Positions 4,891-56,014 of a stretch of DNA of 64,000 bases are shown piece after piece. A program made the position numbers and the translations under genes. Positions within the stretch are counted from its first letter, which is position 1; each line of letters opens with the position of its first letter. The notes beneath the pieces are model-generated. The model was not told the origin of the DNA. It was given only the letters and a program-made list of their open reading frames with translations, and did not search any database. The stretch lies in contig CATOSP010000002.1 in NCBI GenBank assembly GCA_951812625.1, forward strand, positions 1,218,880 to 1,282,879. Reading direction: 5' to 3'. Origin of the DNA: an uncultured Dehalococcoidia bacterium (GTDB lineage Bacteria > Chloroflexota > Dehalococcoidia > Lucifugimonadales > UBA3495).

Positions 4891-5418
4891 ATGACTTTCT
4901 CCCAACTCAGGTCCCAGGTCGACGCCCTCCTCCGCAAGTACGCAACCGAAGTCGAGACCTACCGCCTCGGCAAGGTCACCGCTGAATTCTGCGATGAGGT
5001 TGCCGACGCCCTGACTAACCCCAAGTCCGGCCCCGTGAAAGACCCCTTCGATTGGGCCTCCGTATTGTTCAAGCGGATGGCGAAACGCGGCTACCGTCCC
5101 CGGAACCTCACGCCTATCCAGAACTACCTGACCCGCTGCCTCCAGGAGCGCCGCGTCCTTCCCCAGGCCCGCGAGGTCCTGCGTGCCCTCCTGCCCAATG
5201 CCGCCGAACGCGGACTCATCCCCCGCACCGTCGAAGACCCGGTTCCCATCTGCGCCATGAAACGCGGGCTGGAGAATGCTGCCAGGAGTGGCGGTTCAGG
5301 TTCGTCCGGCCTGGGTCTGTCGGACCTGATCGAACACTGGCAGAAGATGGACTACTGGCGGCAGTTGGCCCAGAGTTCCTTGCCGGGTAAGGGAATGGCA
5401 GAAGGGGCGACCGCGTAG
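4891..5418 (+). CDS. hypothetical protein, 175 aa
   Basis: No family recognised. A soluble, helix-rich, Arg/Leu-rich protein without signal peptide or membrane segment; the C-terminal third contains a Gly/Ser-rich linker (about residues 130-140). The start has a good AGGTG ribosome-binding site five bases upstream and is directly preceded by three tandem repeats and a hairpin. Its codon use looks like that of its neighbours, with C or G in most third positions, which supports a real gene. It stands alone between the FAH gene (minus strand) and the enoyl-CoA hydratase. Confidence 0.6.
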   Translation: MTFSQLRSQVDALLRKYATEVETYRLGKVTAEFCDEVADALTNPKSGPVKDPFDWASVLFKRMAKRGYRPRNLTPIQNYLTRCLQERRVLPQAREVLRALLPNAAERGLIPRTVEDPVPICAMKRGLENAARSGGSGSSGLGLSDLIEHWQKMDYWRQLAQSSLPGKGMAEGATA

Positions 5419-5609
5419 ACCTGCCCCGGTCGACAGAGACAGGGCCCCGCAGGCCGTCTTTGTACAACTGGACTGCCTGATACGCACACCTGCCTTCACT
5501 GTGTTCGCCTTGACTGCGAAACCCTCCGGGGCTAACATTCCCCCGACTGAACGGGCTGGTATCGTCCAGCCACCGGCGAAATACCGCAGCCAGGCACACG
5601 CGAGGGAAT

Positions 5610-6443
5610 ATGCCCTACCAGAACCTGTTGCTGGACCGGGATCAGGCGGTCCTCAAGATCACCGTGAACCGGCCCGAAGTGCTGAATGCCCAGAGCCGCA
5701 TAATGCGGGAGGAGCTTGACATCACCTTGGCCGAGGCGGCGGAGGATGATTCGGTCCGCGTGGTCATCATCGCCGGGGCAGGCAAGCACTTCTCCGCCGG
5801 GCACGACCTTGGCAGCCCCCAGGAATTGGACGACCGCCAGCGCCGTCCCTATGCGCCCGGAATGTCCGGCCAGTTCAAGCGCAGTTGGGACCAGAACCTC
5901 GCCAATACTCTTCGCTGGCGCGACTTTCCCAAGCCCACCATCGCCCAGGTCCAGGGATACTGCATCATGGGCGGCCTGATCCTCGCCACGTCTTGCGACC
6001 TGATTGTCGCTGCCGACAACGCCCGGTTCTCCGACCGCACCGTCCGCTGGGGCGGCCCCCACGTCCAGTACTCCAGCCTCCCCTGGGAGATCGGCGTGCG
6101 CAAGGCAAAGGAATACCTCTTCACCGGCGACTGGATAGACGCCGCAGAGGCGGAACGAATCGGGCTGATCAACCGCGTCGTCCCCGCCGACAAGCTCGAA
6201 GAAGAGACGATGGCCCTGGCCCAGCGCATCGCGCTGCAGGACCCCTTCGCCCTCAGGTTGGCCAAGTTCTCCATCAACCAGATCCAGGACGAGATGGGAT
6301 TCCGCACCGCCATAACCGGCGCATTCCAGGCCCACGCTATATCACTGGCCTACCGCCGGGAGCAACACGGCGATGACTTCGAGCGCAGCATGGGCACCGA
6401 TCGGGCCCGGCGCAGGGACGAAGCCTTCGGCGACCACCGTTAG
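5610..6443 (+). CDS. enoyl-CoA hydratase/isomerase family protein
   Basis: Crotonase-fold enzyme of 277 residues acting on acyl-CoA thioesters. The oxyanion-hole segments HFSAGHD (60-66) and GYCIMGG (116-122) are both present. Crotonase members also catalyse isomerisation, dehalogenation or C-C cleavage, so hydratase activity is only the default. GAGGGA precedes the ATG. It is followed 38 bp later by two CoA-transferase genes on the same strand, suggesting an operon that activates an acid to its CoA ester and processes it by beta-oxidation-like steps. Confidence 0.92.
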   Translation: MPYQNLLLDRDQAVLKITVNRPEVLNAQSRIMREELDITLAEAAEDDSVRVVIIAGAGKHFSAGHDLGSPQELDDRQRRPYAPGMSGQFKRSWDQNLANTLRWRDFPKPTIAQVQGYCIMGGLILATSCDLIVAADNARFSDRTVRWGGPHVQYSSLPWEIGVRKAKEYLFTGDWIDAAEAERIGLINRVVPADKLEEETMALAQRIALQDPFALRLAKFSINQIQDEMGFRTAITGAFQAHAISLAYRREQHGDDFERSMGTDRARRRDEAFGDHR

Positions 6444-6481
6444 TCCGGTCGCGCCGTCGTTGGGACCATGAAACACCTGCC

Positions 6482-7669
6482 ATGAGCGCTCTCTCCGACC
6501 TTCGGGTCATAGACCTCTCCACCAACGTTGCCGGGCCATTTTGTGCCAAGCTCTTCGCCGACTTCGGGGCTGACGTAATCAAGGTCGAGCACCCCCAGGG
6601 TGGTGACGAGGCTCGGCTGATCGGCCCCTTCGCAGACCAGTCCAACCCCGAAGAGAGCAGTGCCCTCTTCCTCTACCTCAACACCAACAAGCGGGGCATC
6701 ACCCTGAACTTCGACACCCAGCAGGGGATGTTCGTCCTGCGACAGCTTCTCAGCGTCGCCGACGTTGTGGTGGAGAGCTTCCAACCGGGCACAATGGAAC
6801 GGTACGGCCTGGGGTTCGACGGGCTCCAGGAACTCAAGCCGGGGATCGTCTTGGTATCCATTACCCCATTCGGCCAGGACGGCCCGTGGAGCCAGTACCA
6901 GGCTACCGACTTGGTCGAATTCGCAGCGTCCGGTCTGAGTTCCGTCAACGGCTTGGCATCCCGCGAACCGTTGAAAGTCCCCGGCTTCGAGACCTGCTAC
7001 CAGGCTGGGATTAGTGCCTTCTCCGGCGCGATGACTGCCGTCTGCCACCGGGACGCCGGTGGTCCGGGCGACCATGTGGACGTGTCGATTCTTGAGGCCG
7101 CCACCACCATCTTCGGCCCGCAAATTCTCGCCGCACAGCATTCCGGCCGCTCTCCGGGTCGTCGCAACGCGCCCAGGCCCACCGGCTTGTTTCCCTGCAA
7201 GGACGGCTTCATTTCCCTGAACGTCCGCCACGAACCAACTTGGCGTTTCATGTGGCTCTTCTTCGACGAACCGGAGATGGCGGACGACCCGCGATTCGCC
7301 ACCCAGAACGCCCGTCGGGAGCGCAACCAGGAGCTTGAGGATCTGCTGATGCCCCGCTTGGCCCAGTACACGATGGAGGAGTTGTTCCACGGCCTTGCTC
7401 CCATCCGCATCATGGTGGGGATGTCCCTTGATGTGGGCCAGATAGCCAACGATCCTCACCTCAAGGAGCGTGGCCTGTTCGTCGAGTCCCAGCATCCGGT
7501 CGCTGGGGCCGTGCGCCATCCCGGGGCGCCCTTCCTCATGGGCGAAACACCGTGGGAACTGCGTCATCCCGCCCCGACCCTGGGACAGCACAACCGGGAC
7601 ATCCTCACGGGAATGCTGGGCTACAACCCTCGGGAATTGGACCGCTGGCGCGCTCAGGAGATCATTTAG
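6482..7669 (+). CDS. family III (CaiB/BaiF) CoA-transferase, possibly non-catalytic partner
   Basis: Formyl-CoA transferase-like protein of 395 residues with the typical start LRVIDLSTNVAGPFCAKLFAD and the GDHVDVSILEA segment near residue 200. In the family the catalytic Asp lies in a GD or TD motif just before the segment resembling YQAGISAFSGAM. Here that place reads GFETCYQAG and no Asp is evident. The adjacent gene does have it. A heteromeric pair in which only one subunit is catalytic, as known for benzylsuccinate CoA-transferase, is an inference. The stop codon is one base from the next start. Confidence 0.9.
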   Translation: MSALSDLRVIDLSTNVAGPFCAKLFADFGADVIKVEHPQGGDEARLIGPFADQSNPEESSALFLYLNTNKRGITLNFDTQQGMFVLRQLLSVADVVVESFQPGTMERYGLGFDGLQELKPGIVLVSITPFGQDGPWSQYQATDLVEFAASGLSSVNGLASREPLKVPGFETCYQAGISAFSGAMTAVCHRDAGGPGDHVDVSILEAATTIFGPQILAAQHSGRSPGRRNAPRPTGLFPCKDGFISLNVRHEPTWRFMWLFFDEPEMADDPRFATQNARRERNQELEDLLMPRLAQYTMEELFHGLAPIRIMVGMSLDVGQIANDPHLKERGLFVESQHPVAGAVRHPGAPFLMGETPWELRHPAPTLGQHNRDILTGMLGYNPRELDRWRAQEII

Positions 7670-7670
7670 G

Positions 7671-8954
7671 ATGGCTGTCGACAACTCCGGAGCACATTCC
7701 TTGCCATTGGCCAACCTGAGGGCCGTTGTCCTCACTCAGGCTTGGGCCGGGGCGGTCACATCTATGCTTCTTGGCGACATGGGCGCGGACGTGGTCCAGA
7801 TCGAAGCCCTCGAACGCCCCGATCCCTGGCGCGGCGGTTACGCTCCACGGCTCTCCGGCACCTACGCCAACAATGACCCCGGGGAACGTCCCTTCGACCG
7901 CAACGCCAACTTCAACTCCGTCAACACCAATAAGCAGGGCATCACTATCGACCTCAACCACCAGGAGGGCAAGGACCTCTTCCTTGACCTGGTGCGAATC
8001 TCCGACATAGTCGCCGAGAACTTCTCCGCCCGGGTGATCCCCAACTTCCGGCTGGAATACCCGGTATTGCGGCAGATCAACCCCAGCATCATCATGTTGC
8101 GTATGCCTTCCTACGGAACGTTCGGCCCCTATGCCATGTACATGGGCAACGGTGGCACTACCGAACCTATGTCGGGTATATCCTCCCTCTTGGGTTACCA
8201 GGATGGGCCGCCCATGAACTCCGGCGTTATGCACACCGACCCGGTGGCTGGCATGTTCGGCTACGCCTCGTTGATGATCGCCCTCCACCACCGTAACCGC
8301 ACCGGGAGAGGCCAATTGATCGACCTGTCCCAGCAGGAGACCTCGGTACACCTGATCGCACGTCAGGTGATGGATCAGACCCTGACCGGCAGTATTCCTG
8401 CCCGGCAGGGCAACCGCGACGATCTCATGGCTCCCCACGGCAACTTCCCTTGTCAGGGCAACGACACTTGGGTCGCTATCTCCGTCCGGTCCGATGCTGA
8501 ATGGATGCGGCTGTGTGAAGTAATGCAGCGAGCCGACCTCGCCGTGGACCCGCGCTACCGCGACTTGGCTGGGCGGCAGAGGCACGTCGCAGACCTGGAA
8601 GATGCAGTGTCGAGGTGGACTTCCGCCCAGGATGCCTACGCGGTGTCGTCCCGGCTGCAAGCCGTTGGTATCCCTTCGGCCCCCGTGCTTAAGGCTGCTG
8701 AGGTTCTGGAGAACCCGCAGTTAAAGGCCCGTAGCTTCTTCGATGATGTGGCCCATCCGGACACTGGTACCTACCAACACGCCGGGACTCCTTGGCGGCT
8801 GGTCAACTCCCTTCGCAAACCCCGATCACCCGCTCCAACCCTCGGGCAGCACAGTGCCAGGGTCTTCCGCAACCTCCTGGGACTATCAAATGAAGACGTC
8901 GCCGCTCTCATTGATCGGGGCATCACAGGGGAAACACCATCCCCCGAGGAGTAG
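7671..8954 (+). CDS. family III (CaiB/BaiF) CoA-transferase, catalytic Asp present
   Basis: About 427 residues from ATG 7671, chosen because it abuts the preceding stop (TAG ends at 7669) and begins the usual CaiB N terminus; the reading frame remains open upstream but overlaps the previous gene. The motif HTDPVAG places the expected catalytic Asp at about D190, and GRGQLIDLSQQE follows as in active members. These enzymes exchange CoA between a thioester and an acid through an aspartyl-CoA anhydride. It is translationally linked with the preceding CoA-transferase and lies downstream of an enoyl-CoA hydratase. The exact CoA acceptor is unknown. Confidence 0.92.
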   Translation: MAVDNSGAHSLPLANLRAVVLTQAWAGAVTSMLLGDMGADVVQIEALERPDPWRGGYAPRLSGTYANNDPGERPFDRNANFNSVNTNKQGITIDLNHQEGKDLFLDLVRISDIVAENFSARVIPNFRLEYPVLRQINPSIIMLRMPSYGTFGPYAMYMGNGGTTEPMSGISSLLGYQDGPPMNSGVMHTDPVAGMFGYASLMIALHHRNRTGRGQLIDLSQQETSVHLIARQVMDQTLTGSIPARQGNRDDLMAPHGNFPCQGNDTWVAISVRSDAEWMRLCEVMQRADLAVDPRYRDLAGRQRHVADLEDAVSRWTSAQDAYAVSSRLQAVGIPSAPVLKAAEVLENPQLKARSFFDDVAHPDTGTYQHAGTPWRLVNSLRKPRSPAPTLGQHSARVFRNLLGLSNEDVAALIDRGITGETPSPEE

Positions 8955-45017: not shown

Positions 45018-45064
45018 TGGTGGGCCTGGATGGACTCGAACCATCGACCTCGGTCTTATCAGGA
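45018..45064 (-). repeat. tRNA-Ile(GAT) 3' half, right copy of the island repeat
   Basis: On the minus strand this reads from CTGATAA (anticodon loop with GAT) through GGTTCGAGTCC to CCAGGCCCACCA, with a perfect 5-bp T-stem (GATGG/CCATC). The 5' half with a matching acceptor strand is absent, so it is not a working tRNA gene. 45020-45040 is repeated at 33304-33324. This looks like the junction left by site-specific integration into a tRNA-Ile gene. Confidence 0.8.
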
Positions 45065-45127
45065 CAGAAACGGGAGGATGCCCTACCAAGAGGTCTTGGG
45101 GGCTACCATGCCAAATAATGTGCCTAG

Positions 45128-45303: not shown

Positions 45304-46556
45304 CTATGGAGTCACCAATTGCGAGCGCTGTGACGAGAGGTTCCAAGGAGAATGGACTGTCACTGCGGCGCTGTTTCCAAGGTCTTCACGAGAAGCCAAC
45401 AAATCTGCCCATGATTCCATCAACCACCGCCTCCTCTCGAAGAGGTCGCTCCTAGCGTACGCAGTTTCTGTCGAGTTGCCCAAATTATGGGCCAGAGCGG
45501 CCTCCCTCACCACCCAAGGCGTGTCGGTGCATTCGATGCACCAGCCCTTGAAGCTGCTGCGGAACCCATGAGGCACTGCGGGTATGCCGAGACGCCGGAG
45601 CAGCGTGACGTAGACCATGTTGGACAGCGGCTTGCCGGAATGCCCCTGGAATACGAGCTTTCTGCCATCCTCATCCAGGTTCCGTACCTTGGATAGAACT
45701 TCCAGGGCACGGACAGCTAACGGCACCCGGTGCTCCCGTCGCGCTTTCATACGCGACGCCGGGACGAACCAGGTCCTGGACTCCCAGTCTACCTCGGACC
45801 ACTTCGCCAGTCGCACCCCGCCGGAACGGGCTGCCGTCAGCACCAGGAACTCGAGGGAGAGCTTGGTCACCAAGTCGGCGGTGGACTGCCTGACCCGTTC
45901 CAGTGCCGCAGGCACGTCCCCGTAGGGCAGGGCTGGATGGTGGTTCTTCACCTTGGGTAGCTTGGGGAGCACCTTGAGGCTGGATCTGCCTGCCGGGTTA
46001 TCCAGCCTCCACCCCTGGGCGACGGCCCAGTCGAGCACGGTCTCCAGGCGCTGCCGGACCCGGCGGGCGGTCTCGGACTTGACGGTCCATATGGGGGTCA
46101 GGACGGCCAGCACGTCCCCGCCGTCAATCTCATCCACCGGCTTGGAGCCGGTCACAGGGTTGGCGTAGGTGGCCAGGGTGTTCCTCCACTGGTACGCGTG
46201 CTTGGCATTGCTCCAGGTGGGGCGGCGCAACTCGATCACGTGGAGACAGGCCTCGGCGAATGTGGGAATGGATGGAGGCGGCTTGCGGGAGGATTCCCGG
46301 GCCACACGTTTTTCCGATACCGGGTCCGTCCCTCGGCTACGGCGGTTTGGTTGTGATGGGCGATGGAACGGGCGCTGGCGGGGCTTATTCCGGGGTATGC
46401 CCCAAGGCCTATGTCCCGGTGCCGTCCGTCAACCACTATCCGTTGCACCTATGACTTGGCGCCTGAACGTGAGATGTACAGGTAGAAACCGTCGCCATCG
46501 CCGTGCCGGCCGGGCTTGCTGAGGGTTTTTGCCGAGAGTGCGGTGAGGTTGCCCAT
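45304..46556 (-). pseudogene. P4-type tyrosine recombinase/integrase, inactivated
   Basis: From ATG 46556 the frame reads MGNLTALSAKTLSKPGRHGD, GFYLYISRSGAKS, then TAG where Trp is expected, then VQRIVVDGRHRDIGLGAY. A one-base frameshift near 46320 leads into VARESSRKPPPSIPTFAEA and the rest. Catalytic residues are visible: Arg in AARSGGVRLAKW, H-x-x-R in HGFRSSFKGW, LAHNLGN and the Tyr region AYARSDLFERRR. It lies between tRNA-Ala (158 bp upstream) and the MITE, a normal place for an island integrase. Confidence 0.85.
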
Positions 46557-46713: not shown

Positions 46714-46788
46714 TGGTGGAGGTGAGGGGATTCGAACCCCTGACCCCCTGCGTGCAAAGCAGGTGCTCTCCCTCTGAGCTACACCCCC
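46714..46788 (-). tRNA. tRNA-Ala (anticodon TGC)
   Basis: Minus-strand cloverleaf: acceptor GGGGGTG pairs with CACCTCC, D-arm TAGCTCAGAGGGAGAGCA, anticodon loop around TTTGCAC with TGC, T-arm AGGGGTTCGAATCCCCT, discriminator A and an encoded CCA (46714-46716). No introns. The 3' end faces the integrase pseudogene, so it may be an integration target; I found no second copy of its 3' end in the window. Confidence 0.95.
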
Positions 46789-50079: not shown

Positions 50080-51657
50080 ATGAAGTACGATGTCATTGTC
50101 GTTGGCGGAGGGGCGGCGGGATCGGTCTTGGCCAGCAGATTGGCGGAAGACCCAAATACCTCTGTTCTGTTGTTGGAGGCCGGGAACGACTATCCCGATT
50201 ACTCCACCCTTCCGGACGAAGTGAAGTATGGTGGGACCAGGTTCGCGGAATCCCCGGAATCGGAACACAACTGGGCATTGCGCGGCACCATTACTGAGGA
50301 GCAGGGCGAGATCCACGTAGCCCAAGGCAAGGTTATTGGCGGTGGTTCATCTATCAATGGGCAGGCGATGCAGAGAGGATTTCCCGAAGACTTCGACTCC
50401 TGGGCGTCACTGGGGAACGACGAATGGTCGTATGACAAGGTGCTGCCGTTCTACAGGAAGATGGAGCGTGACCTTGACATCCAGGACGACTTTCATGGGT
50501 CGGATGGTCCAATGCCGGTAAGGCGCAGGCAGTCCGGGGGTATGACCGACCTCCAGAAAGCCTTCACCGCCGCCTGCTCGCGGCTTGGATACGGCGTTAC
50601 AGGGGACACGAACGGTCCGAACCCTTCCGGCCTAGGGATATCCCCCACCAATAACCTTGAGGGCGTACGGATGAGCGCGGCAATCACCCACCTGAATCCG
50701 ATGCGCCACCGGTTGAACCTGACTGTAAGGGGCGGCGTATTCGTCCACAAGGTATTGTTCGAGGACTCGAGGGCCGTCGGTGTGCAGGCTGAGAGCGGGG
50801 GAGAGGTGTTCACCCTAGGATCAGACCGAGTAGTCCTGAGCTCCGGCGCAATCAGGTCTCCCCAGTTGCTCATGCTGTCAGGCATCGGCCCCAAGGACCT
50901 GCTTGAGCAATTTGGGATTTCCGTGATCCAAGAACTCCCCGGAGTAGGCCAAGGGCTGTGGAACCACCTCAGCGCGCAGGCTACCTTCAAGGTCAAGGAT
51001 GGGGTCACTCTGACCGGCCATGATGTCGATGCCCCACACTATGGTCTGCATTACACTTCCGAAGGATCAGATGAAACGAACGACATGGTGCTGAGGACAG
51101 GCACAGTGGTCGATGAGCGTGCTGAGCGCGTCCCCGGAGTGCGAACCAAGTACCTGACCGGCGACGTTCCTCCTGATCGGGCGGCACGTATATCGTGTAC
51201 TCTCGGGTTGCCTAAGGGATCAGGTTATGTCAGGTTGGCGTCCGCTGATCCGAACGTTCAACCAACCTTCAATTATCGTTACCTCCAGCATCCGGACGAC
51301 ATGCGGCGGGTAAGGGAGGGCCTGAGGTTCGGGATCAGGCTGCTGGAGTCCGAAGAGTTCAAGGACGTTTATGACTACCGGATTCAACCGACGGACGACA
51401 TCCTTGCCGATGACAACGCGCTTGACACCTGGATACGCCAAACTGTCGGCACTGCCAGGCATGTGTCAGGGACATGCAGGATGGGTCCTGATTCGGACTC
51501 GATGGCAGTGGTCGACCAATACTGCCGTGTAAGGGGAGTTCAGGGTTTGTGGGTGGCCGATGCCTCGGTAGCTCCGCGAATTCCCCGGTCAGGCGGCCTC
51601 CATCCCACAGCACTCATGATCGGGGAGCGGGTAGTGGACTGGGTTGCGGCAGGCTAG
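50080..51657 (+). CDS. GMC family FAD-dependent alcohol oxidoreductase (choline dehydrogenase-like)
   Basis: Protein of 525 residues, clearly paralogous to the gene at 20750: MKYDVIVVGGGAAGSVLASR, VLLLEAGNDYPDY, GKVIGGGSSINGQAMQRG, LSSGAIRSPQLLMLSGIGP. The C-terminal catalytic region HVSGTCRMG and the ending LMIGERVVDWVAAG are present. GGAGGG precedes the ATG. It is followed 110 bp later by an NHL-propeller gene on the same strand. Substrate is an unknown alcohol. Confidence 0.93.
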   Translation: MKYDVIVVGGGAAGSVLASRLAEDPNTSVLLLEAGNDYPDYSTLPDEVKYGGTRFAESPESEHNWALRGTITEEQGEIHVAQGKVIGGGSSINGQAMQRGFPEDFDSWASLGNDEWSYDKVLPFYRKMERDLDIQDDFHGSDGPMPVRRRQSGGMTDLQKAFTAACSRLGYGVTGDTNGPNPSGLGISPTNNLEGVRMSAAITHLNPMRHRLNLTVRGGVFVHKVLFEDSRAVGVQAESGGEVFTLGSDRVVLSSGAIRSPQLLMLSGIGPKDLLEQFGISVIQELPGVGQGLWNHLSAQATFKVKDGVTLTGHDVDAPHYGLHYTSEGSDETNDMVLRTGTVVDERAERVPGVRTKYLTGDVPPDRAARISCTLGLPKGSGYVRLASADPNVQPTFNYRYLQHPDDMRRVREGLRFGIRLLESEEFKDVYDYRIQPTDDILADDNALDTWIRQTVGTARHVSGTCRMGPDSDSMAVVDQYCRVRGVQGLWVADASVAPRIPRSGGLHPTALMIGERVVDWVAAG

Positions 51658-51767
51658 TCACTAATTGACACTCCATATACGAGACTTTAGGATAGCAACG
51701 GGTTTCCCGGGTGCCTGCCGGGGGAACCCGAGGTCCGAACATACAACTACCTGAATTGGGGGGAGAT

Positions 51768-52718
51768 ATGGCGGATACCTACGGACAGGGAGATTTTCTC
51801 TACCGGCACGTGGACAACTGGGCTAAGCTGCCCGAGGGAGTACGGTTCCTGGAGTGTCCTGGTGTCGCGGTGGATTCACAAGACAACGTCTACGTTTTGA
51901 CCCGCGGAGAACATCCGATCATGGTGTTCGACCGGGAGGGGAATTACCTTCGCAGCTTCGGGGAGGGCGAGTTCAGTAACCGGACTCACGGGCTCTATAT
52001 CGCACACGACGACTCCCTTCTCTGTGCCGATGACGGAATCCACACCATCCAGAAATTCTCGCCTGACGGCAAGAAACTGATGGAGATCGGGGAGCGCAAC
52101 CAGCCGAAGCCAATCTGGGGCGGAGATCCGTTCAACCGGCCGACATCCGCTGCGATCATGCCCAGCAACGGAGACGTGTACATTTCCGACGGCTATGGGA
52201 ACTCCAGAGTCCATGTCTTCTCCGAGACGGGGGACTACAAGTTCTCCTGGGGTGACTCGGGAATCGACGCGGGCCAGTTCATGAGGCCCCACAATATCGC
52301 CATCGACGCCGACGACCGCGTTTACGTAGTAGACCGGGAGGCTCACCGTATCCAACTATTCGACGCACGTGGCAACTTCATCGAGATGTGGAATAACATC
52401 CACCGCCCGGATGCGATGGTGCTATGGCAGGACCACATCTACGTCGGCGAGCTCAACGCTCCCGGACCGCCTCCCCCTGCCGGCGCCCCCGGATTGGGCC
52501 ATAGGGTCACTATCTACGATCTGAAGGGCAACCGAGTGTGCATGTTCGGTGCACCAGAGGAAGGCGAGGGGCCTGGGCAGTTCATCGCTCCCCACGGGAT
52601 TGCGGTGGACTCCAGAGGAGACGTTTACGTGGGAGAGGTGTCCTACACCATACGCGGCTCCCACATGGACCCGCCGAAGGAACTGCGGAGCATATCCAAG
52701 TACGAACGGGTCCGGTAG
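51768..52718 (+). CDS. NHL-repeat beta-propeller protein (peptidyl-hydroxyglycine lyase-like)
   Basis: About 316 residues of repeated NHL motifs such as GVAVDSQDNVYVL, PSNGDVYISDGYGNSRVHVF, NIAIDADDRVYVVDREAHRIQLFD and GIAVDSRGDVYVGE, making a six-bladed propeller like the peptidylglycine lyase fold. No signal peptide is seen. ATG 51768 has GGGGGGAG upstream; the frame is open earlier. It lies between a GMC oxidoreductase and the selenoprotein pair on the same strand. Enzymatic or binding role unknown. Confidence 0.85.
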   Translation: MADTYGQGDFLYRHVDNWAKLPEGVRFLECPGVAVDSQDNVYVLTRGEHPIMVFDREGNYLRSFGEGEFSNRTHGLYIAHDDSLLCADDGIHTIQKFSPDGKKLMEIGERNQPKPIWGGDPFNRPTSAAIMPSNGDVYISDGYGNSRVHVFSETGDYKFSWGDSGIDAGQFMRPHNIAIDADDRVYVVDREAHRIQLFDARGNFIEMWNNIHRPDAMVLWQDHIYVGELNAPGPPPPAGAPGLGHRVTIYDLKGNRVCMFGAPEEGEGPGQFIAPHGIAVDSRGDVYVGEVSYTIRGSHMDPPKELRSISKYERVR

Positions 52719-52758: not shown

Positions 52759-53829
52759 TTGAGCGAACAGGGCGACACCACCACGGATACTACCACAGTA
52801 CAATGGGCCGACCCCCTGGAGGCTGTAGAGGTATGCTATGACCTGGGCTGGACGGACGGGTTGCCCGTAGTGCCGCCCACAGCCAGGAGGGTGGGCGAGT
52901 TCCTCGAATGCGTCGGCCGGTCCGCTGATGAGGTGGTAGGGGAGATACCAGAACGCCGACGGGTAATCACCGTAGGCAAGGTGGCGGCCAACGCAGTAAT
53001 GGCCGGGTGCCTGCCCCAATACCTCCCCGTGGTCCTCGCCGCCACCGAGGCTATGCTCGACCCGGTGTTCAACCTTGTCGGACCGTCCTCCAGTATGGGC
53101 GGCTCGGCGATCCTCGTGGTCGTCAATGGCCCCGTGGTGCGGGAGCTGAACATCAACTCTCGGAACAACCTATTCGGCCCTGGCAACCGTGCCAACGCCA
53201 CCATAGGGCGGTCCATTCGCCTGATTCTGATGAATGCCTGTGCGGCCATTCCGGGACTTTTCGACCGGAGCGTTATCGGGCACCCTGGCAAGTACAGCTA
53301 CTGCATCGCCGAGGCGGAGACGGAAACCCACTGGGAGCCTTTCCACGTTGAACGTGGCTTCGGCCCCGACCAGAGCACGGCCACTGTGTTTGCGGCGGAG
53401 AGTCCCCGGCAAGTTCGGGCCACCGGGCACCCGGAGTCGATTCTCTATGCTATCGCGGACGCTGCATCGTCGCTGGGGACGAGCATGTCCACATCCGGGT
53501 CTGTGGGGGACCGCTCAGCCGGACTGCGGCAGGGGCAGATTGGCGTAACGATAGCGGGGGCATCCAGCCTCTGGAAGGACTGGACCAAGGCGCAGGTGCG
53601 AGAATACCTGTACGCGAACATCAGTCGCTCGGTGGGGGATCTGAAAGAAGCAGGTGTCCTTCCCGGTGACCCGGAACCGGGGGATGAAGCGGAGTTCGTG
53701 CCCCTTCTCCCCGAGCCTGAGGACATCTTGCTCCTGTTCGCCGGTGGTGAAGAGTCCAATATGGCATCCGTTATCCCCAGTTGGGGTCCCAAGGTGGCTT
53801 CGACGGCGGTTACGAAGCCGGTGCGCTAG
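52759..53829 (+). CDS. uncharacterised protein paired with UGSC selenoprotein
   Basis: About 356 residues from a TTG start with GGAGG/GAGGG upstream; a longer frame overlaps the NHL gene and is unlikely. Characteristic stretches: GWTDGLPVVPPTARRV, AVMAGCLPQYLPVVLAATEAM, LNINSRNNLFGPGNRANATIG and HPGKYSYCIAEAE. From memory such proteins recur next to UGSC-type proteins, but no activity has been assigned that I know of. Conserved Cys residues (AGCLPQY, YCIAE) may cooperate with the selenocysteine of the partner, 49 bp downstream. Strong codon bias supports it as real. Confidence 0.8.
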   Translation: MSEQGDTTTDTTTVQWADPLEAVEVCYDLGWTDGLPVVPPTARRVGEFLECVGRSADEVVGEIPERRRVITVGKVAANAVMAGCLPQYLPVVLAATEAMLDPVFNLVGPSSSMGGSAILVVVNGPVVRELNINSRNNLFGPGNRANATIGRSIRLILMNACAAIPGLFDRSVIGHPGKYSYCIAEAETETHWEPFHVERGFGPDQSTATVFAAESPRQVRATGHPESILYAIADAASSLGTSMSTSGSVGDRSAGLRQGQIGVTIAGASSLWKDWTKAQVREYLYANISRSVGDLKEAGVLPGDPEPGDEAEFVPLLPEPEDILLLFAGGEESNMASVIPSWGPKVASTAVTKPVR

Positions 53830-53878
53830 CGTGCCGACTGGGAATACCGATGCGTGATCCAAATCAAAGGAGGCGGCA

Positions 53879-54424
53879 ATGACCCAGAAGCAAGACATCA
53901 CGCTGGTCAACCCTACCACACAGGCAGTAGTGGCGCCTTTCGACGGGGCGCCTCGTCTACCCAGCCTTGCCGGTACGCGGCTGGGCATTATCGACGACAG
54001 CAAGCGGAACGCGGACGTGCTCCTGGAGGAATTGGTGGACCTGCTCCGCACCCGGTACGAAATCTCCGACGTGCGGTGGCACCGCAAGCCCAGTGCGTCC
54101 CGGCCCGCAGACCCGGATGCGATCAAGAACCTGGCTGAACACTGTGATTCGGTGATCATCGCGATCGGGGATTGAGGGTCCTGCAGTGCGTGCAGTGTGC
54201 ACGACGGGATCCACGTGGAAAACGCCGGTATTCCTTCAGCTACGATTTGCACCGACCGGTTCATCCCCACGGCTGAGGGCATGGCCAAGATGTGGGGTGC
54301 AGCCGATTACCCCACAATATTCACGGAACATCCGATAGAGAACCTGGACCGAGACGCTCTGCGCAGCCGGGCAGAGGAACTGGCCCCTCTGGTTGTGCAG
54401 GTCTTGGTGGGCGACTCTCAGTAA
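53879..54424 (+). CDS. UGSC family selenoprotein (in-frame TGA read as selenocysteine)
   Basis: ATG 53879 has a perfect AAAGGAGG. The frame runs 98 codons to VIIAIGD, then TGA (54173-54175), then GSCSACSVHDG and 76 further codons to TAA at 54424, 181 residues in all. The motif is U-G-S-C with Sec99 and C102, plus C105, the signature after which the family is named. The part after the TGA keeps good codon use and family-like sequence (GIPSATICTDRF), so the TGA is not a true stop. Redox function is likely; the substrate is unknown. A hairpin directly after the TGA fits a SECIS element. SelA/B/C/D must be elsewhere in the genome. A standard gene caller would split it in two. Confidence 0.88.
54173..54212 (+). 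promoter_or_regulatory. putative bacterial SECIS element
   Basis: Just after the TGA, GGGTCC (54176-54181) pairs with GGATCC (54207-54212, one G-U). Inside, GTGCG (54186-54190) pairs with TGCAC (54198-54202) around a seven-base loop TGCAGTG. The apical loop lies about 16-22 bases from the TGA, the usual distance for SelB-binding hairpins. Predicted by eye only. Confidence 0.6.
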
Positions 54425-54465
54425 AAACTGGAAGTCACGGGCCTAGCACCAAATTAGAGTTGTCG

Positions 54466-54493
54466 CGTCGGGGGGATTCCCCCCGACGTTTTT
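54466..54493 (+). terminator. rho-independent terminator of selenoprotein operon
   Basis: Perfect 10-bp stem CGTCGGGGGG/CCCCCCGACG with ATT loop, followed by five T. It stands 42 bp after the selenoprotein stop and before the convergent Trm112-like gene. Confidence 0.9.
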
Positions 54494-54501
54494 CTGTCAG
54501 G

Positions 54502-54684
54502 CTATCCCCGCATGTCGGGAGGCAGCAGGTTTGGGATCGCGTCCTCGATGGGATACACTTCGTTGCATGATTCGCAAGTAAGCGCCCCGGTGACCACCTC
54601 ATCCGCCTCCTCAGTATCGACGCGAAGCTTTAGGTCTCCTTTGCACACAGGGCAGACCAAGATGTCCATTAATTCTCTCTTCAA
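54502..54684 (-). CDS. Trm112-family zinc-ribbon protein
   Basis: About 60 residues. DILVCPVCKGDLKL and GALTCESCNEVYPI form the four-Cys zinc ribbon; IPNLLPPDMRG is the classic ending of the family. Trm112 proteins activate methyltransferases. TTG 54684 was chosen since it gives the usual start KRELMDILVCP and has GGGGGAA upstream; ATG 54669 and 54738 are alternatives. Stand-alone gene convergent with the selenoprotein. Confidence 0.88.
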   Translation of the reverse strand: MKRELMDILVCPVCKGDLKLRVDTEEADEVVTGALTCESCNEVYPIEDAIPNLLPPDMRG

Positions 54685-54744
54685 AATTCCCCCAGGTTCT
54701 GATCGTAAGCAGAGCAAGGTGTAGGGGTGTCTCAACAATCCGGG

Positions 54745-55227
54745 CTACCCGACCAGCCCTCGTTCGAACAGGGCGTCGAGAACATCCGCGAGCCCGATTG
54801 CTATGGTACCGCCTATGATGATGGCCACTGGGCTGACCAATGCGCACCGCACCCGTGCTACCAGGCTGCCCTCCGTGGAGGAGTTGTTCACTCCGCTCCT
54901 CCTTTGCAGGAGCCATGTTGCGCCGAATATGTACAACGCCACGGCTATTTTGACCGACAACACGATTACATAGGGGAGGGAGACAGCGGTCGAGGTCAAG
55001 CGGGACACGGACAATATAACCCCACTCAACACCAACACGGCTATGGCGGTGTTCACCACGCTGCGGAATTCAGCCCCAGCCAATCTACCTACCGTCCCGC
55101 CGCCGTCTGCCTTCTTCAAGGCCGGGCGCAAGACCAACAAGAAAAAGATGCTCCCGCCAACCCATGCCACAGCGGCCAGGGCATGGGCCAATCTGATGCC
55201 CACCAATATCCAGTCCAGTACGGTCAT
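54745..55227 (-). CDS. CopD/DUF-type integral membrane protein
   Basis: About 160 residues with four membrane segments: about 5-30 (WILVGIRLAHALAAVAWVGG), 52-75, 80-102 and 130-150. The pattern of a His in the first helix and the general layout resemble the CopD copper-resistance/heme-linked membrane family. No clear ribosome-binding site for either ATG (55227 or 55272). It lies downstream of a TlpA-like gene on the same strand, which fits an envelope redox or metal role (inference). Confidence 0.7.
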   Translation of the reverse strand: MTVLDWILVGIRLAHALAAVAWVGGSIFFLLVLRPALKKADGGGTVGRLAGAEFRSVVNTAIAVLVLSGVILSVSRLTSTAVSLPYVIVLSVKIAVALYIFGATWLLQRRSGVNNSSTEGSLVARVRCALVSPVAIIIGGTIAIGLADVLDALFERGLVG

Positions 55228-55310
55228 TAATCGAGCGTAGGGTGAGTGGGCAGGTTCATGGGCTGGGTGCAACTACAGTGGGACTGTCGTGTCGGTGGTG
55301 TCCGACTAGG

Positions 55311-55841
55311 TTACCCCTGGGCCATTTCGCCGACGATCTGAGTGATTTTCTCCCGGTCCAGGACGCTAATCTCTGTCGAGTGCACATGCCCCGACTTGTC
55401 GATGAATATGGTCGTAGGGTAATACTTCAGTCCGTAGGCGTCGGCGATCTCGGCACGGGTATCGGTGGCCACGTCGTAGGTCAAGCCAAGCTCCTGGACG
55501 AAGTCACGTGCGTCCTGCTCCGAATCCAACCCGCGAGGAACGAACAGTCCCAGGAACCGCACGTCCTTCCCCTGCAAGCCGCGCCATGCCTCCTCGAAGT
55601 CTGGCATTTCGGCGCGGCAGGGCGGGCAGGATGGGAACCAGAAGTTAAGCACGACCGCCGTGCGGCCTATCTGTTCCGACATCTGGAACTCCCCGCCGCT
55701 GAAAAGCGTCACCTGGAAGTCTACGGCTTTCTCTGGACCGCCTGGCAGGTTCCCGCAACCAGACAACACGAACAACGATACGGATGCGAAACCCAGTTGC
55801 AGGAGGCGGACGAGGAATCTGAGAATAGACGTCTGGGCCAT
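55311..55841 (-). CDS. TlpA/ResA-like thioredoxin-fold lipoprotein
   Basis: About 176 residues. N-terminal signal with membrane stretch and lipobox VLSGC (lipidated C29), then a thioredoxin fold with the redox pair CPPC (in WFPSCPPCRAEMP, C72/C75) and the cis-Pro region YYPTTIFIDKSGHV. Membrane-attached outside the cytoplasm; probably reduces disulfides, for example during cytochrome c maturation. Start 55841 is preferred for a standard signal peptide; GTG 55865 is possible. Confidence 0.88.
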   Translation of the reverse strand: MAQTSILRFLVRLLQLGFASVSLFVLSGCGNLPGGPEKAVDFQVTLFSGGEFQMSEQIGRTAVVLNFWFPSCPPCRAEMPDFEEAWRGLQGKDVRFLGLFVPRGLDSEQDARDFVQELGLTYDVATDTRAEIADAYGLKYYPTTIFIDKSGHVHSTEISVLDREKITQIVGEMAQG

Positions 55842-56014
55842 CGGAGCTACGGGAGCAATACTCACAGTTGGGCCAGCTAATTCTATAGCCGGAAGGGTGG
55901 ATGGTCAAACCGGAGGTCCAGGGTTCAAGCATGACCGACCGGCAACTCGCTCACCGTTGACTGACGGTGGGAGATGTTTACAATCAGACCATCCTGACAT
56001 CGGAAGGGGCAATG

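Follow-up and report, generated by a model that had tools for sequence, protein, structure and literature searches.

The window analysed here, a stretch of 64,000 nucleotides, belongs to a genome of 4.03 Mb (95% complete) from the Chloroflexota (Dehalococcoidia/SAR202). It carries a gene for a UGSC-family selenoprotein, preceded on the same strand by a gene of an unnamed family, hereafter the partner, and by an NHL-repeat beta-propeller gene (Table 1). The ATG of the UGSC gene stands 5 nt after the Shine-Dalgarno sequence AAAGGAGG, and from there one frame runs through a TGA into GSCSACSVHDG and on to a TAA at 54422-54424. The U-G-S-C motif itself is written TGA GGG TCC TGC (54173-54184). A first-pass annotation, made from the letters of the sequence, had described this frame with its start signal, its assignment to the UGSC family, a SECIS-like hairpin right after the TGA and a strong terminator after the TAA, and every feature it described is present.

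Three convergent genes on the minus strand (Trm112-like, CopD-like and TlpA-like, 54502-55865) lie beside the UGSC gene in 31 to 41 of 46 orthologue loci. On the plus strand, a GMC oxidoreductase gene at 50080-51657 scores above the NCBIfam cut-off for the mycofactocin dehydrogenase MftG (TIGR03970, 399.7 against 387.45 bits). On the minus strand, a tyrosine-recombinase integrase gene (45304-46305; PF00589, PF22022) is found near a tRNA-Ala (46714-46788), and a weak tRNA-Ile-like sequence at 45018-45096 was not accepted by Rfam; this region may be the remnant of an integrated element.

Table 1. Features of the UGSC locus (window coordinates).
Feature	Position	Strand	Remarks
NHL-repeat beta-propeller gene	51711..52718	+	Found upstream in 43/46 named orthologue loci
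Partner gene, unnamed family of ~345 residues	52759..53829	+	Constant companion of UGSC; TTG 52759 taken as the start by comparison with N termini of orthologues
Shine-Dalgarno sequence AAAGGAGG of the UGSC gene	53866..53873	+	Read in the sequence
UGSC-family selenoprotein gene	53879..54424	+	181 residues, Sec at residue 99; matches to PF24696 and NF041046; purifying selection before and after the TGA
Sec codon TGA, residue 99, motif U-G-S-C	54173..54175	+	TGA in 17/17 orthologues and 9/9 paralogues; Cys in several bacterial and archaeal homologues
SECIS apical stem-loop	54189..54203	+	5-bp stem CGUGC/GCACG, loop AGUGU, 18 nt after the TGA; MFE -20.7 (54176-54215)
Intrinsic terminator	54465..54489	+	11-bp stem and T run; fold z-score -5.2

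The in-frame TGA and its decoding

Mechanical ORF calling under the standard code splits the UGSC gene into two ORFs of 98 and 75 aa, as the first-pass annotation had foreseen for automatic callers. Taken at face value, this would mean that the TGA is a real stop that ends a 98-residue protein, the remainder being either in decay or a separate ORF. The probability of this reading is negligible. Indeed, a single domain model spans the TGA: the Pfam model PF24696 (UGSC) matches the read-through product over residues 9-177 with 191.6 bits (E 1.5e-56), and the NCBIfam model NF041046 matches it with 156.1 bits, both above the cut-offs for family membership (25 and 125 bits, respectively). The TGA is kept in all orthologues and paralogues, and purifying selection is as strong after it as before it (dN/dS 0.12 and 0.145, respectively, in 17 orthologues), so both halves are under protein-level selection. 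Furthermore, the check for Cys at position 99 proposed in the first-pass annotation returned uninterrupted homologues with CGSC in bacteria and haloarchaea (Arthrobacter, Natrinema, Halalkalicoccus, Halorientalis, Roseovarius, Embleya, Variovorax and Haloterrigena). Conservation and these Cys/Sec pairs refute a real stop and, on comparative grounds, we regard as confirmed that 53879-54424 is one gene for a predicted selenoprotein, its TGA read as Sec99.

The selenocysteine system that this reading implies for the organism was found complete in the genome, with selA (558 bits), selB (347 bits), selD (390 bits) and a tRNA-Sec with anticodon UCA. The first-pass annotation had named a lack of this machinery, or homologues with a true C terminus at the TGA, as evidence against its reading; neither occurred. 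selD (C2:793402-794325) contains one in-frame TGA, and selenophosphate synthetase is probably itself a selenoprotein.

The hairpin behind the TGA is under a constraint of its own. Codons +5 to +10 past the TGA (GCG TGC AGT GTG CAC GAC) show no synonymous change among the 17 orthologues (pS 0.00), against synonymous differences of about 0.64 elsewhere in the gene. Judged by the bacterial SECIS model as quoted in PMC13188914, the hairpin agrees in loop length, G position, stem length, 18-nt spacing and energy. Covariation is modest, consisting of one pair with four double changes: four divergent paralogues have G-C in place of the C-G pair that closes the loop. Folding the single sequence gives a minimum-energy structure with a long lower stem and a 7-nt loop; this was dropped, as only the apical CGUGC/GCACG stem is kept across paralogues. 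With this machinery and this element present, the UGA at 54173 would be decoded as Sec by SelA, SelB, SelD and tRNA-Sec, aided by the SECIS at 54189-54203.

Paralogues and a constant partner

By its sequence, the window selenoprotein belongs to an already known, functionally uncharacterised family. A UGSC-containing selenoprotein was described in the Global Ocean Sampling (GOS) survey of Zhang and Gladyshev in 2008 (PMC2398784); that paper gives 255 Sec and 21 Cys forms and ranks UGSC, with 255 sequences, as the fifth most numerous selenoprotein family. It also reports a fusion of UGSC with Unknown_1, which is probably our partner family.

Homology searches, from which all our whole-genome counts derive, revealed nine UGSC-family genes in the genome, each with exactly one in-frame TGA. 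One TGA is likewise present in all of the ~155 UGSC matches listed for 59 related genomes. Across 301 genomes of the phylum it is absent from only three of ~79 matches, namely one fragment and two sequences with neither Sec nor Cys, and TGA-GGN-Ser-Cys is retained in 46/46 orthologues from named records (Dehalococcoidia, SAR202 cluster, Chloroflexi MAGs). A search of viral contigs for UGSC gave no match. Some fused relatives have neither Sec nor Cys, carrying TRSG, MGVT or MGTS instead; part of the family therefore works without a selenol or thiol at this point. Plasmids of Vibrio europaeus (excerpt 5371-7056) and Sporomusa termitida (excerpt 5314-7038) encode such UGSC-like/partner fusions with MGTS in place of UGSC, adjoining aconitase X and DUF126 genes, and their sequences identify them as a branch that lost both Sec and Cys.

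Other plasmids carry UGSC genes with a TGA and hairpins of the CGUGG/CCACG type, namely p2-T1 of Acidovorax sp. T1 (excerpt 5863-8424) and pFER4 of Paracoccus ferrooxidans (excerpt 5435-6001), the latter with selB 4 kb away. Public annotation splits the Paracoccus gene into two small ORFs and, for the Acidovorax UGSC-partner fusion, gives only the portion ahead of the TGA. Gene counts for the family are therefore probably too low.

The partner (52759-53829) matched no model in Pfam or NCBIfam. Nine genes of its family are found in the genome, pairing one-to-one with the nine UGSC genes: eight UGSC copies have a partner relative as neighbour on one side or the other, the ninth has one at a distance of ~8 kb, and two of the nine are UGSC-partner fusions. 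Frameshifts break up one partner copy (C2:1631924-1632941), which from the sequence makes it either a pseudogene or an assembly error. The association extends well beyond this genome. UGSC and partner have identical presence or absence in 59/59 related genomes, with copy numbers that correlate closely (Pearson r 0.98 over the 59 genomes) and are equal in 33 of the 46 positive genomes, unequal counts reflecting at least partly fragmented matches. Of 46 named orthologue loci, 43 to 45 retain the gene order NHL propeller, partner, UGSC. Every UGSC homologue examined on a plasmid (Actinomycetota, Proteobacteria, haloarchaea) is adjacent or fused to a partner, and this adjacency persists in bacteria and haloarchaea although gene order varies. 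Pairwise divergences of the two proteins are also correlated (r 0.69; 0 of 2000 permutations). This genomic evidence strongly supports a functional link in which UGSC would act together with the partner encoded upstream, and the two may form a physical complex. The interpretation given in the first-pass annotation stands as to family, Sec codon, SECIS and implied Sec machinery; it had missed the nine paralogues, the obligate-looking upstream partner and the relation to GrdB described below.

Predicted fold and relation to GrdB

An AlphaFold2 model of the UGSC protein (pLDDT 91) shows an alternating alpha/beta, flavodoxin-like domain, with Sec99 placed where a beta strand ends and a helix begins. 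In structure it comes closest to lumazine synthase, flavodiiron flavodoxin domains and FMN reductase. A likely Trx-like fold was assumed when the family was named (PMC2398784); a thioredoxin fold with CxxC at the first helix does not fit the flavodoxin-like model, and thioredoxin is absent among the 50 PDB matches listed for it. For the partner, structure prediction gave an uncertain fold (pLDDT 70) that matched nothing in the PDB. Searching PDB sequences with UGSC, the partner or GrdB returned nothing useful either.

Sequence profiles point to the closest relative of known function, which is GrdB, the selenoprotein B of glycine reductase. Around its Sec, the window protein gives a match to TIGR01917, a GrdB model (E 1.4e-4), as do 11 of 14 UGSC members at E<0.1 (best 3.8e-6). 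These scores are far below those for GrdB membership (20.9 bits against a cut-off of 602 and 17.5 against 65 for TIGR01917/TIGR01918). In hhalign, comparison of UGSC with GrdB selenoproteins of the same lineage gave a probability of 87.5% (E 3.6e-6) with U aligned to U, against at most 0.3% for unrelated controls. The comparison with PrdB or PrdB-like proteins was not significant (1.5%). These alignments support a distant relationship between UGSC and the C-terminal part of GrdB, which bears the Sec. The partner showed no similarity to GrdB, nor to the GrdE-like protein of the same genome, on which ground a GrdE-like role for it was rejected; no pyruvoyl or Schiff-base chemistry is therefore implied.

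The genome also encodes a full GrdB-type selenoprotein (TST-U-GTSTRCG; TIGR01918, 479 bits) at C2 about 1887608-1888894, preceded by a PF09338 Gly_reductase gene, and therefore has a glycine/betaine/sarcosine-type reductase as well. A PrdB-like selenoprotein (TPT-U-PLC) with a long C-terminal extension is found at C2 about 2165216-2166402, ~5 kb from one UGSC copy.

The top structural matches of the model would also suit a UGSC protein that serves the partner enzyme as an electron-transfer subunit, flavin-binding or of another kind, its Sec or Cys acting as a redox relay rather than as a nucleophile. We think this improbable: the invariant residues cluster at U-G-x-C and the helix that follows, and the GrdB register points to a catalytic Sec.

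Proposed function and comparison with known reductases

Clusters of the Cys type offer further clues. In Arthrobacter sp. ERGS1:01, trxB and trxA adjoin the partner-UGSC pair in the order trxB-trxA-partner-UGSC. In Roseovarius THAF8 and Variovorax SRS16, trxB lies adjacent to the pair or close by, as do TrxB-family reductase genes in V. boronicumulans and Haloterrigena. The surroundings of these clusters include genes for CoA-transferases, lyases and solute transporters. No TrxB match was found next to the SAR202 UGSC copies.

The relation to GrdB, the fold, the TrxB neighbours and the catabolic gene context together lead us to infer a thioredoxin-regenerated reductase in carboxylate catabolism. 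The best explanation of the whole, to which we give a probability of roughly 0.55, is that UGSC and its partner would form a two-component selenol reductase that is regenerated by thioredoxin and acts on a catabolic substrate. Sec99, whose register in the sequence is that of the catalytic Sec in GrdB, would reduce the substrate as a selenolate, probably through a nucleophilic attack of the kind proposed for GrdB/PrdB, directed at an activated carbon. Selenolate attack on carbon is the mechanism proposed for GrdB and the fluoroacetate reductase FarB (PMC10838667), and by analogy may apply to UGSC. The Se adduct would next be resolved by Cys102 of U-G-S-C, giving a selenenylsulfide, and thioredoxin with thioredoxin reductase would re-reduce the Sec99-Cys102 bond.

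The UxxC motif and the TrxB/TrxA neighbours, together with the TlpA-like thioredoxin gene that follows the locus on the opposite strand, could also be expected of a general thioredoxin-like thiol/selenol oxidoreductase, such as a protein disulfide or peroxide reductase, instead of a substrate-specific catabolic enzyme. We consider this unlikely, given the confident flavodoxin-like model and its lack of thioredoxin matches, and because nine copies with their own dedicated partners among catabolic genes point to substrate specificity. Under the selenol reductase reading, the nine pairs of the genome probably serve different substrates in SAR202 catabolism. More tentatively, UGSC and partner might represent a new class of two-component, thioredoxin-dependent reductases that cleave substrate bonds through a selenolate, akin to glycine and proline reductases with a different partner, and that radiated to as many as 13 pairs per SAR202 genome for the breakdown of dissolved organic matter. 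With its constant partner, its TrxB neighbours and its relation to GrdB, the family has a function that can be put to a concrete test.

With the UGSC family as described from GOS (PF24696/NF041046), the window protein shares the full-length domain, the U-G-S-C motif, a TGA-encoded Sec with its SECIS and the prevalence of Sec over Cys. It departs from that description in the nine paralogues of one genome and their one-to-one partner, which, like the GrdB relation and the TrxB linkage, we did not find in the open-access literature examined; the SAR202 pangenome and cultivation papers among it treat other paralogue expansions and make no mention of selenium. D-proline reductase PrdB (TIGR04483) has a UxxC Sec motif in a position comparable to that of UGSC. 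With GrdB of the glycine/betaine/sarcosine reductases (TIGR01917/TIGR01918), UGSC shares the register beta strand, U, G, S/T, x, helix and E..GIP; in contrast to GrdB, it is a stand-alone domain of ~180 residues that lacks the N-terminal GrdB part and is paired with a partner that is not GrdE-like.
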